40,153 bases of DNA. Source: Halobacteriales archaeon QS_8_65_32 (GTDB taxonomy: Archaea > Halobacteriota > Halobacteria > Halobacteriales > Halococcaceae). The translations under genes and the position numbers were made by a program. The DNA lies in assembly GCA_003022925.1 (NCBI GenBank), contig PXRY01000001.1, forward strand, positions 1 to 40,153. Direction: 5' to 3'. Numbering within the stretch: position 1 is the first letter of the stretch; the number at the start of each line of letters is the position of its first letter. The notes under the pieces are model-generated. The model worked only from the letters and a program-made list of their open reading frames with translations. It had not been told where the DNA came from and searched no databases. Positions 9,332 through 32,950 of the stretch are shown here, piece after piece.

Positions 9332-9352
9332 ATTTATGTGTTGCCCTGCAGG

Positions 9353-9559
9353 CGGTGGTAACTAGCGACAATGGGACAGAAGCGGCGTGCAGAACGGTTT
9401 GAAATCCCCCCGACACGCTCGACTCGGGGGGCTCGCTGCGCGCTTCGCTCGGTCGCTCCAGTGCTTGCTTCACCCGCCATCGTCGAGCGCGTCGGCCCCT
9501 TTCAGTCTCACCCATGACGGTTGTTTAGCAGGCAATTGCGTAAGTTAACACTGCCACCC
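9353..9559. mobile_element. MITE-like element, copy A (short)
   Basis: Shares left end (TAACTAGCG...), internal GAACGGTTTGAAA...CCCGACACGCTCGACTCGGGGGGCTC and right part GTCGGCCCCTTTCAGTCTCACCC...GGCAATTGCGTAAGTTAAC with 30326-30680; ends are imperfectly inverted (GGTAACTAGCGACAAT vs reverse complement GTTAACTTACGCAAT). Confidence 0.6.
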
Positions 9560-28715: not shown

Positions 28716-30302
28716 ATGAAAGTTCTCGTCACGAACCCCATCGCCGACGCCGGCCTCGAACGACTGCGGGTGGCCGGCCACGACGTCGAGACGGCCTACG
28801 ACGCTACCGACGATTCGCTCTACGACGCGGTCATTGATGCGGATGCACTGATCGTTCGCTCTGGAACGGAGGTGACCGCCGACGTGATCGAAAGCGCCCG
28901 CGACTTGGTGATCGTCGGCCGAGCGGGGATCGGCACCGACAACATCGACATCGACGCCGCGACCGACCGGGGCGTGATCGTCGCGAACGCCCCCGAGGGC
29001 AACGTCCGCGCCGCGGCCGAACACACCGTTGCGATGACCTTCGCGACCGCCCGGTCGATCCCCCAGGCCCACGCCCGGCTCAGGGCCGGCGAGTGGGCGA
29101 AAGGCGATTTCTTGGGGACTGAACTCAACGGCAAGGTCTTAGGGGTGGTGGGACTCGGCCGCGTCGGCCAGGAAGTCGCTCGCCGGCTCGGCAACCTCGG
29201 CATGGACATCGTGGCGTACGACCCCTACATCGCCGAAAGCCGTGCCGATCGCCTCGGCGCGGAACTCGTCGACCTCGACGAGTGCATCCCCCGAGCGGAC
29301 GTACTGACCGTCCACACGCCGCTGACCCCCGAGACCGAGGACCTGATCGGCGAACCCGAACTCGACCGAATGGAAGGGGGACACCTCGTGAACTGCGCGC
29401 GCGGGGGCGTTGTCGACGAGGCGGCCCTGGCCGAAGCGGTCGACGACGGCACTCTTGAGGGCGCAGCGGTCGACGTCTTCGCGAACGAACCCGTCTCGCC
29501 GGACAACCCCCTGCTCGACGTCGAGAACGTCGTCATTACGCCTCACCTGGCTGCGAGCACCGAAGCCGCCCAGGAACACGTCGCGACGTCGATCGCCGAT
29601 CAGGTACTCGCCGCCATTGAGGGACGGCCGGTCGCGAACGCGCTGAACGCCCCCTCGATCGACGAAGCGGCCTTCCCCCGCGTGCGCCCCTATATCGATA
29701 TCGCCGAAACCGCCGGCCGGATTTCGGTGCAGTTGTTCGACGAGCGGGTCGCCGAAGTCGAGGTCACCTACGCCGGCGAGATCGCCGACGAGGACGTAGA
29801 CCTCGTGACCGCGAGCGCGCTGAAGGGCGTATTCCGACCGCTCGAATGGCAGGTCAACGCCGTGAACGCCCCCCGGATCGCTGACGAGCGCGGCATCGAG
29901 GTAAGCGAGATCAAACGCCGCCAGGCCGAGGACTTCCAAAGCCTCGTCACGGTCGCCGTTCGCAGCGACGACGGCGCGGAGATGAGCGTCTGTGGGACCC
30001 TCTTTGCGGGCGAGGACCCCCGGATCGTCCGCGTCGACGGCTTTCGGGTCGATGCCATTCCCGGCGGGAGAATGATGGTCACGCGAAACGCCGACGCTCC
30101 CGGCGTGATCGGCCTGATCGGCACCGTGATGGGCGAGCATGATATCAACATCGCTGGTATGTACAACGCCAGGGAAGCCCACGGCGGCGAGGCGATGACC
30201 GTCTACAATGTCGATCAAGCGGTCCCCGAGGAAGCACGCGCGGAACTCGAAGCCGACGAGCGGATCATTTCGACCCGGTATATCACGCTCAACGACGAGT
30301 AA
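28716..30302 (+). CDS. serA: D-3-phosphoglycerate dehydrogenase
   Basis: GKVLGVVGLGRVGQEVARRL NAD motif, VNCARGGVVDEAAL, C-terminal ASB and ACT domains (DAPGVIGLIGTVMGEHDINIAGMYNAR). Confidence 0.96.
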   Translation: MKVLVTNPIADAGLERLRVAGHDVETAYDATDDSLYDAVIDADALIVRSGTEVTADVIESARDLVIVGRAGIGTDNIDIDAATDRGVIVANAPEGNVRAAAEHTVAMTFATARSIPQAHARLRAGEWAKGDFLGTELNGKVLGVVGLGRVGQEVARRLGNLGMDIVAYDPYIAESRADRLGAELVDLDECIPRADVLTVHTPLTPETEDLIGEPELDRMEGGHLVNCARGGVVDEAALAEAVDDGTLEGAAVDVFANEPVSPDNPLLDVENVVITPHLAASTEAAQEHVATSIADQVLAAIEGRPVANALNAPSIDEAAFPRVRPYIDIAETAGRISVQLFDERVAEVEVTYAGEIADEDVDLVTASALKGVFRPLEWQVNAVNAPRIADERGIEVSEIKRRQAEDFQSLVTVAVRSDDGAEMSVCGTLFAGEDPRIVRVDGFRVDAIPGGRMMVTRNADAPGVIGLIGTVMGEHDINIAGMYNAREAHGGEAMTVYNVDQAVPEEARAELEADERIISTRYITLNDE

Positions 30303-30325
30303 GGAACTCGGGAAACCCTCGGCAC

Positions 30326-30680
30326 AGTATTAATTAGCGGCATAGGAGAGAACAGCAGGTCAGATTGAACGGTTCGAAAGCTCCCGACACGTTCGGTTCG
30401 GGGGGCTCATTGCTGTTAAAAGACCGCGCTGCCGCGCGGTCTTTTGCGATGTGATGGGAACTCTCCGAGTTCCCATTTACTCACGAGGACTCCGTTCTCG
30501 TGAATGTGGTCAGAACGTGGAGCGTTCTGACTGCAAGCTGGAAATCGTAGATTTCCAGCACTGAACGAAAGACGCCTTCGGCGTCTTTCGAACCACGGCG
30601 AAGCCGCCACGCGGTCGGCCCCTTTCAGTCCCACCCTGTAGCAGTTGTCCGGTGGGCAATTACGTAGGTCAACGCTGCTG
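30326..30680. mobile_element. MITE-like element, copy B, carrying a six-hairpin array
   Basis: Ends and internal blocks match copy A at 9353-9559; contains six consecutive inverted repeats between 30418 and 30590. Confidence 0.65.
30418..30590. repeat. Array of six consecutive stem-loops
   Basis: AAAAGACCGCG/CGCGGTCTTTT (30418-30445); ATGGGAACTC/GAGTTCCCAT (30454-30476); TCACGAGGAC/GTTCTCGTGA (30481-30503, one G-T); GTCAGAACG/CGTTCTGAC (30509-30531); GCTGGAAATC/GATTTCCAGC (30537-30559); CGAAAGACGCC/GGCGTCTTTCG (30566-30590). Confidence 0.95.
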
Positions 30681-30757
30681 GCGCGACCGGAGCGAACCCG
30701 CCGCGGTCGTAGAGGACACCCAAGCGCCTCGAAGGCCAGCACGGACGAGACGTCCCT

Positions 30758-32057
30758 TTACCCGGACGCGACGCTGTGAATCCACCCCCCGACGTCCCCG
30801 ATGACTGAGGGAGCGACGTTTCCGCCGAAGTACAGCGCAAGCGGCGTCGCCGGCACGAAGCCCGCCTGGAAGTAGTGATCGGGCCCCTCGTAGAACTCGA
30901 CCCTGCTGCCGCCGGGGAGATCGGTGGCCCGCCACGCCTCGAACTCACCCCGGAGCCACGCGAGGAGTTCGGGTTGGGCCGCCTCGTCGGCCCGTCCAGC
31001 CTTCAGGACGAAGGCGGGCATGTCGAGGGCGCTTGCGGTCCCCGCAGGGTCGTACGCCGCGACGCTGCGGTGCCACGTTCCCGGTCGCCCCTAGAGAGTC
31101 TCGTCATCCTCGAAGTCGCCCTCGGCGATGCGCCGTGCGGTCTCGCGCTCGCGGTCGAGTTCGGCCTCCTGTGCGTCGCTGAGGTCGCCATCCGGTTCGA
31201 ACTCGTAGCGCATGAAATCGAGGTCGTCGGGATCGAGCGTCGAGTCCGCGCGACCGTCGAGAACGACGCCCGCGACGCTGCCGTGCTGAGCGGCGATGCG
31301 GGGAGCGGCCATCCCGCCCTGGCTGTGGCCCGCGACGAACAGGGCCTCTTCGGCCACCCTATCGATGGCGGCGAGTTCCGCCAGTGCCGCGACGGCGTCG
31401 TCGACGACCGCATCGAGCGTTAACTCCTCGTCGGGGACGTCCTGGTCCGCGAGGCGCTTCTCGTAGCGAAGCGTGGCGATCCCCTCGCTCGCGAGTCCCC
31501 ACGCGAAATCCCTCAGAAGCTTCGACGCGCCCACGGTGCCGTCCGGGTCGTGGACGCCGGCCCCGTGAACGAGCGCAACGCCCGGAAACGGCCCAGGTCC
31601 GGTGGGTAGCGCGAGAACCCCGTCGAGGCTAACGTCCCCGGCGTCGACGCTCACCGCACGCTCGCCGAACGCGCCCCGGTCGACGTACGCTGGGGGTTCG
31701 TACGCGGGTGAGAACGACGAGCCGACGACGCCGTCGGCCGTGACTTCGATAGTCGCCGCCTCAGTCCCCGCCTCGAACTCGAACGTGACGATCGCCTCGG
31801 TACCGCCGTCGATCGCTTCGTCCTTACTCGCGGTCACGTCGCTCACGCCTTGCAAGTCGCCGTACTGTGCGTGGAGCCCCGATCGGTACCGTTCGAGCGC
31901 GTCTTCGGCGTCCATCGATTCCTCCCCGAACCCGTCGGGGGAAGGTCTCGACGACCGCCGCCCGACCCTCGTCGGTGAGCAAAGCGGTCGCGTCGACGAC
32001 CGATCCGTCGGCGAACCGGTTCGCGAACTCGCGCGCCGTCGCTTCGGCCTCGCGCAT
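30758..32057 (-). pseudogene. DUF3887-like + alpha/beta hydrolase, inactivated by +1 frameshift (31937-31941) and in-frame TAG (31091-31093)
   Basis: Frame pieces MREAEATAREFANRFADGSVVDATALLTDEGRAAVVETFP | DGFGEESMDAEDALERYRSGLHAQYGDLQ...VAGHSQGGMAAPRIAAQ...EGDFEDDETL * GRPGTWHRSVAAYDPAGTASALDMPAFVLKAGRADEAAQPEL...GPDHYFQAGF. Confidence 0.85.
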
Positions 32058-32316
32058 GGGAACCATCCGTCGAGTCGCGTTCGTCCGGCGGGGTCGAATA
32101 GCTTGTGTGGCTCGGCCCGCACCAGAAGCCCGCTGACGGGAAAGCGCGATGGTCGATCGCCGACGACGACCGAAACTACTTGTACACCGCCGAACCCATC
32201 GGCCGGGGATCGAAATCGTCGTTCGATTCCGAATCGTGATCGCCGGAGCCAGTTCGACGACACGGACTCGACCCGATTCGTCGCCGTTCTCCACGACTCT
32301 ATGCCTCCGCTGGGCC

Positions 32317-32346
32317 GATTTTGTATAGCGATATGAAGTTTACAAG
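32317..32346 (-). repeat. 26-bp AT-rich dispersed repeat, copy 1
   Basis: Reverse complement CTTGTAAACTTCATATCGCTATACAAAATC; see copies 2-4. Confidence 0.75.
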
Positions 32347-32445
32347 AGAAAGCGGCGGTCTCGTGAGTCGTGCGTAGCGTCGGCGACCGGCCGGCGACTC
32401 GGTTCTCCCTGGCGTCGCTCAGTTGATCGTCCGCCGTGATCGCGC

Positions 32446-32950
32446 TCAGTACTCGACCGCGACCGATTCGCCGACGGGTCGGCCGTCGATCGACGGGCGG
32501 TCTCGCCGGGCGAGGCCGAGTCGCGGCCCCGGACAGTCTCGGCGAACCGTTGCAGCAGTAGCCGGTCAGGATCGGTGCCATGGAAGACCGATGATAGGTC
32601 GGCCGGAGTTTTCTCGCGCGTCACCTGAATGCGCCGGGCGAAACAGTCCATGTCGATGACACCGTGTGTCCCGGTTACCTCCGACGTCGCGTCGCTCCGT
32701 GATTCCCGCCCGTGGGATGCGTTCGACGACCCGTCGAGTGTGAACCGCGCTCCGTCGTCGAGCGTTATCGAGAGCGCGCTGACGTTCTCGCCTTCGGTAC
32801 CGGCGAATCGGGGTGCCGTCTCGGCGTGCATCCCGATGTGGAGTCCGATCAACCGGTGGACCGCGTCGACGGCGCTGACGGCGTGGTGCGCGATAGCCCT
32901 GTCGATCCGGTCAGGATGGTCGAGCCAACCTCCGCGGAGAGGCCTGTGAT
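32446..32950 (-). pseudogene. Degenerate C-terminal fragment of a Gfo/Idh/MocA-family oxidoreductase
   Basis: AVDAVHRLIGLHIGMHAETAPRFAGTEGENVSALSITLDDGARFTLDGSSNASHGRESRSDATSEVTGTHGVIDMDCFARRIQVTRE...DRLLLQRFAETVRGRDSASPGE then frame change to SIDGRPVGESVAVEY*; no N-terminal Rossmann domain upstream. Confidence 0.5.

Follow-up and report, generated by a model that had tools for sequence, protein, structure and literature searches.

Six hairpins inside a haloarchaeal MITE: a widespread paired-hairpin unit and its probable mobility

The hairpin array and its host element

The window, by which we mean the whole stretch of 40,153 nucleotides of contig PXRY01000001.1 (Halobacteriales archaeon QS_8_65_32), carries six near-perfect hairpins in series at positions 30418–30590, on the 3′ side of serA (ORF 28716–30302). 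Their stems are 9–12 bp long and share no sequence with one another, the loops span 3–5 nt and the spacers 4–8 nt. Hairpin 1 (30418–30445) has a 12-bp stem and a TGCC loop, and is followed by hairpin 2 (30454–30476; 10-bp stem, loop TCC) and hairpin 3 (30481–30503; 10-bp stem, loop TCC), which contains the single G-T pair of the array. Hairpin 4 (30509–30531) is formed by GTCAGAACG and CGTTCTGAC around the loop region TGGAG and shows covariation among 24 copies, while the slot of hairpin 5 (30537–30559; 10-bp stem, loop GTA) is occupied by a different palindrome in other copies. Hairpin 6 (30566–30590) has an 11-bp stem and a TTC loop. The minimum free energy of the 173-nt array is −102.5 kcal/mol, while dinucleotide shuffles give −52.6 ± 4.2 (z = −12, with 0 of 200 shuffles equalling it), and the opposite strand also folds strongly (z = −9.9). 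The coordinates confirm the preliminary description of six consecutive hairpins with mutually unrelated stems, which was also right that this is not a CRISPR array, a candidate rejected here on the absence of direct repeats. No Rfam family matched the window above its gathering threshold. Dozens of full or partial relatives of the array are found in the same genome. Downstream, at 30757–31413 on the minus strand, the hydrolase-like ORF 31091–32581 seems to run on toward 30757 in another frame, a possible frameshift.

The array lies within a MITE of ∼357 bp (30323–30679, subfamily B) with CACAGTATTAATTAG at one end and AGCAGCGTTGACCTAC, read on the opposite strand, at the other. These ends come from alignment to ∼60 right and 44 left ends of the same genome; the exact ends of the window copy are inferred, and the 8-bp duplications described below are read from family relatives, none being visible at the window copy itself. 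The left arm of an inner inverted repeat is found at 30376–30391 on the plus strand (GAAAGCTCCCGACACG, kept as GAAAGCCCCCG in copies), and its right arm, together with the conserved end motif GGGTGGGACTGAAAGGGGCCGACCGCG, at 30610–30636 on the minus strand. A second copy at 9351–9555 has the same ends and inner repeat and carries no hairpin unit. This supports the earlier proposal of a MITE-like element with a modular insertion in a common backbone, and of a shorter related element that lacks the array.

The end motif GGBNGGAMTGRAAGGGGCC is abundant, with 242 matches at ≤1 mismatch in the 3.28 Mb draft assembly of this organism (78% complete) and none for the reversed pattern. It is also present in many haloarchaeal genera, and the matches listed include Haloarcula, Halopiger, Salinarchaeum, Halorussus, Halosimplex, Halomarina, Halobellus and Haloarchaeobius. 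Copies of the MITE fall into two subfamilies and terminate in GGYRGTGTTNA, which over ∼10 bp resembles GGTAGTGTTCAGATAAG. The latter is an end of an IS240-type element that encodes a 212-aa transposase in a genome of the same genus (G012); its other end is GGCGGTGTTCAGATAAG. Where both ends of a MITE copy could be placed, the flanks matched as a duplication at ≥6 of 8 positions in 15 of 31 cases, where shuffled flanks gave 3.7 (maximum 9); some of these duplications are exact, such as CCCGGTCG at L090. Given the terminal likeness and the 8-bp duplications, the backbone is most simply read as a MITE of an IS6/IS240-type transposon, although the inner hairpin unit differs from such MITEs in having other ends and no duplication. 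In G012, L144:1400–2096 holds an IS240-type element of ∼697 bp that codes for a 212-aa transposase and has the ends GGYRGTGTTCAGATAAG; it is a candidate mobiliser of the MITE.

The host element also recalls the PATEs, palindrome-associated remnants of IS605-type transposons that are likewise short haloarchaeal elements with near-terminal palindromes (PMC3119063), but it has inverted ends and 8-bp duplications. An origin as a tnpB or PATE remnant was rejected since the end motif is absent next to tnpB in all 30 tnpB loci; the only loose match near tnpB lies ∼1 kb away at the duplicate loci L250 and L263. The core of the MITE (GAAAGGGGCCG ... GCAAGCACYGCAG ... GCGCAGCGAG ... CGGGGGCTTTC) is present in many haloarchaea (L160, L164, L195, L208, L237 and others), often without recognisable IS6-type ends, and may represent an independent element. 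Long arrays built of the same hairpin words are found in another repeat context (TGGATGAAGGGCGAG ... GTCCAGATTTTTGC) at L130:13400–13900 (G006) and L134:17700–17930 (G001), which suggests another family of host elements.

A paired-hairpin unit with constant ends and variable stems

Comparison of the copies reveals a basic unit of two hairpins with the order TSGTT–hairpin–TCATCA–hairpin–AACSA. Units with four hairpins have the spacers TCAGT or TCATT, TTGCA, and CACATCA or GACATCA, and a six-hairpin form also exists. Of 76 distinct units, 59 have two hairpins, 15 have four, one has six and one has a single hairpin, so that the number is even in 75; the flanking bases are G and C in 68. Unlike the stems, which vary from copy to copy, the spacers and ends are conserved. 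The window array corresponds to a six-hairpin unit at 30413–30595, between G30412 and C30596, with ends CTGTT (a degenerate TSGTT) and AACCA; its boundaries and G^C flanks are taken from 69–76 units, and it was assigned to this form by eye because of its CTGTT left end.

The two-hairpin pattern, searched with hairpin interiors left free and only the outer CG fixed, was found in 240 of the 400 haloarchaeal genomes surveyed, which represent 71 of 86 genera. It had no match in the remaining 160 genomes, and the reversed-pattern control had none in any genome. The array is present as the preliminary description stated, but it is no one-off feature of a single element; the doubt raised there, that it might be absent elsewhere and lack covariation, is answered by the units of other genomes and by their covarying stems. 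A phage origin was rejected (no matches in the phage collection), as was a link to tRNA at L275, where tRNA-Val (1651–1725) lies beside the unit and not around it.

The hairpins themselves are highly constrained in form. In a 682 kb sample of the same genome, where densities are inflated because contigs were chosen for having hits, three-nt-loop hairpins with a 10-bp stem number 82, compared with none in shuffles, and strong stems surround 170 of 6143 C-GRA-G/C-TYC-G contexts but only 61 of 69757 contexts with all other loops. Loops in this genome are nearly always GAA, GGA, TTC or TCC closed by C-G, and the 171 signature hairpins of the sample draw on just 35 inner 7-mers and 62 distinct arms, the 5′ arms being purine-rich. 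Across haloarchaea, 99.1% of stem cells are paired in 121 distinct survey units, a share that represents an upper bound because the survey pattern favours intact units. Pairing is perfect in 222 of 242 hairpins. The same four loops account for 125 of 215 three-base loops in the survey. GRA leans toward the first hairpin and TYC toward the second (47 versus 25); this lean is mild, and orientation is therefore not fully neutral. C-GNA-G is known, from work by Hirao and Yoshizawa, to form extraordinarily stable DNA minihairpins. Energy parameter sets barely separate three-nt loops when all 64 are compared.

Covariation was assessed on 24 copies collected by similarity, in which 96.3% of cells are paired compared with 33–42% in slid controls. 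Both sides have changed in 7 of 27 pairs, with 18 double-change cells against 4.9 after shuffling, and one slot may carry a GAA, TTC or GGA loop or a wholly different palindrome. The units show near-perfect pairing with compensatory changes, conserved ends and spacers, a strong loop bias to C-GRA-G/C-TYC-G and presence in most haloarchaeal genera. Pairing and double changes fit either selection for shape or template switching that copies one arm off its partner.

Insertion between G and C and a model for mobility

Mobility was assessed by comparing filled and empty sites, either paralogous or from different species. When the two flanks of a unit were joined, an uninterrupted relative was found for 39 of 69 units (E ≤ 1e-8), compared with 2–5 of 69 when the right flanks were shuffled. 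The junctions of the empty sites lie at G|C with zero duplicated bases, and the target preference is CGNNG^CNNCG. The unit inserts between G and C without duplicating its target.

Individual sites illustrate this. At L123:18062–18125 a two-hairpin unit breaks the coding sequence of a tnpB gene in its zinc-ribbon region, for which L257:1620–1698 provides the uninterrupted relative. A tnpB end hairpin is filled at L281 and empty at L262, a different six-hairpin copy is present at L116 and missing at L095, and the MITE core occurs as an empty relative in several genera. For the window copy (30413–30595), whose left end is degenerate, the flank-joining search returned no empty site. A general preference for host palindromes finds no support, the outer-stem score being 6.0 compared with 5.6 after shuffling.

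Two further cases involve tnpA and tnpB. On the Haloferax larsenii plasmid pHl5678-1 (L303:1326–1778), a unit-like hairpin pair lies within an annotated tnpA (IS200/IS605), the reading frame of which appears open with an in-frame insertion of ∼17 residues. In QH_7_66_36 a two-hairpin unit (L216:7150–7230) lies within a tnpB element at its 3′ end, the expected place of the guide RNA, and a four-hairpin unit lies ∼300 bp upstream of it.

We consider it probable, at roughly three chances in four, that the array is mobile and nested, a paired-hairpin unit lying inside a MITE with IS6/IS240-type ends. The best reading of the unit, from its sequence and that of its relatives, is a REPIN-like, non-autonomous element that probably moves as single-stranded DNA. 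According to this model, a second and smaller mobile unit bounded by TSGTT and AACSA would have inserted into the MITE, and the four- and six-hairpin forms would have arisen as further pairs were added within the spacers of the two-hairpin unit. The hairpins may form in single-stranded or supercoiled DNA, where an enzyme acting in trans could recognise their shape together with the constant flanks, as RAYT transposases are thought to do for REPINs. Strand switching, by which one arm serves as template for its partner, may keep the stems perfect and now and then flip the loops. A hairpin or cruciform DNA substrate was among the functions first suggested for the array, and it is supported here as one possible role.

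A dedicated Y1 transposase was rejected as the mobiliser. Y1_Tnp, the single-stranded-DNA transposase family, has no hit in the organism's own 78%-complete assembly, and its presence in 10 of the 15 genomes rich in units and in 7 of the 15 without any shows no clear correlation with unit counts. A broader proposal is that haloarchaea share a mobile DNA defined by shape, for which a candidate enzyme would read the tags and extra-stable C-GNA-G hairpins of any stem, insert at G^C without duplication and allow growth by hairpin pairs; we regard this as tentative, with odds somewhat against it.

Alternative explanations and relation to known elements

The near-perfect stems and the occurrence of loops in complementary versions could also arise if the hairpins were immobile, being born and multiplied locally by replication template switching at palindromes and spreading only by riding on the MITE. 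The clustering of signature hairpins would fit, as 63 of 117 that are not at an edge lie within 500 bp of a MITE end motif. However, identical ends, spacers and G^C junctions recur in unrelated hosts of 71 genera, and empty sites, some of them in tnpB genes, accompany more than half of the units searched, which makes an immobile origin unlikely.

It is about as doubtful, and if anything slightly more so, that the hairpins belong to a structured non-coding RNA, possibly forming a domain attached to RNAs borne by elements, such as the tnpB guide RNA, with selection at the RNA level preserving the stems. Strong folding of both strands, compensatory changes, a conserved order of spacers and insertions at tnpB ends, the source of guide RNAs, are compatible with such a function. 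By contrast, no curated Rfam family matches, units are found in unrelated hosts including coding sequence, whole stems are swapped between copies, and the loops carry the motif of stable DNA minihairpins, a class of extra-stable structures introduced in PMC10527192.

A role for the host has been considered for units of this kind, which as REP-like sites would have spread by transposition and now be used by the cell in DNA supercoiling, replication pausing, repair or mRNA stability. The many copies carried by several genomes, a mostly intergenic location and near-perfect stems would suit this, but the distribution is patchy, with the survey pattern missing from 160 of 400 genomes, and some tnp genes contain other units; we give this explanation a low probability. 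Least plausible are tandem transcription terminators or insulators, as suggested in the preliminary description: hairpins 1 and 6 do have 5′ arms rich in A and 3′ arms rich in T, and arrays are mostly intergenic, but many stems lack a T run, some units lie within genes, and neighbouring genes in the own-genome sample, with rough gene calls, are divergent in 15, tandem in 18 and convergent in 5 cases compared with 48, 98 and 35 for all gaps ≥300 bp, so that no terminator-like preference is evident. Both the terminator and the dedicated-RNA explanations are weaker than that of a mobile element.

As a mobile element, the unit is most readily compared with REPINs and REP sequences, which are mobilised by RAYT (Y1) transposases (PMC3116915, PMC3733652). 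Both are miniature, non-autonomous and mostly intergenic and occur in clusters (PMC3116915, PMC3733652), and both consist of a hairpin pair with inverted short constant outer tags, here TSGTT/AACSA in 121 distinct units. Target duplication is not expected for the RAYT transposase class, and none is seen here. Within one genome, however, REP stems keep their sequence, but in the present unit the stems vary freely and the spacers are constant; the REP tag is GTAG or CGTC (PMC3733652) in place of TSGTT/AACSA; and the archaeal unit shows no link to a Y1 transposase. As conserved stems and the GTAG/CGTC tag are both missing, the unit is not filed as a REPIN.

The SMR-A repeats of Haloquadratum walsbyi, transposase-free repeats whose mobiliser has been called enigmatic, offer another comparison (PMC3119063). 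Like the unit, they are haloarchaeal, have inverted terminal repeats and contain no transposase gene, and their insertion leaves no target duplication; at ∼110 bp they approach the length of the four-hairpin form, and they target IS605-type transposons and related elements, entering the near-terminal palindromes of IS605-type elements and PATEs (PMC3119063). Several of our units lie in tnpB end hairpins and tnp genes, and host palindromes show no general enrichment. SMR-A has been described as three families without shared sequence (HqIRS42, HqIRS43 and HqIRS55) and not as hairpin pairs (PMC3119063), and the H. walsbyi plasmid PL47 has no hairpins with stems ≥9 bp. Likened by description alone, SMR-A may belong to the same family or be a relative of the unit. 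The palindromic repeats of organelle genomes such as Volvox (PMC2670323) are also short, apparently selfish and fill intergenic DNA, but they are organellar, and the abstract on them describes no two-hairpin units with constant tags.

Our results point to an abundant class of small mobile DNA in most of the haloarchaeal genera tested, for which no description was found in the open-access papers searched. Repeat finding by sequence similarity tends to miss such units because tags and loops are constant while the stems change. With a defined unit, a defined insertion point and empty sites at hand, the question of what moves the transposase-free repeats of haloarchaea becomes testable.
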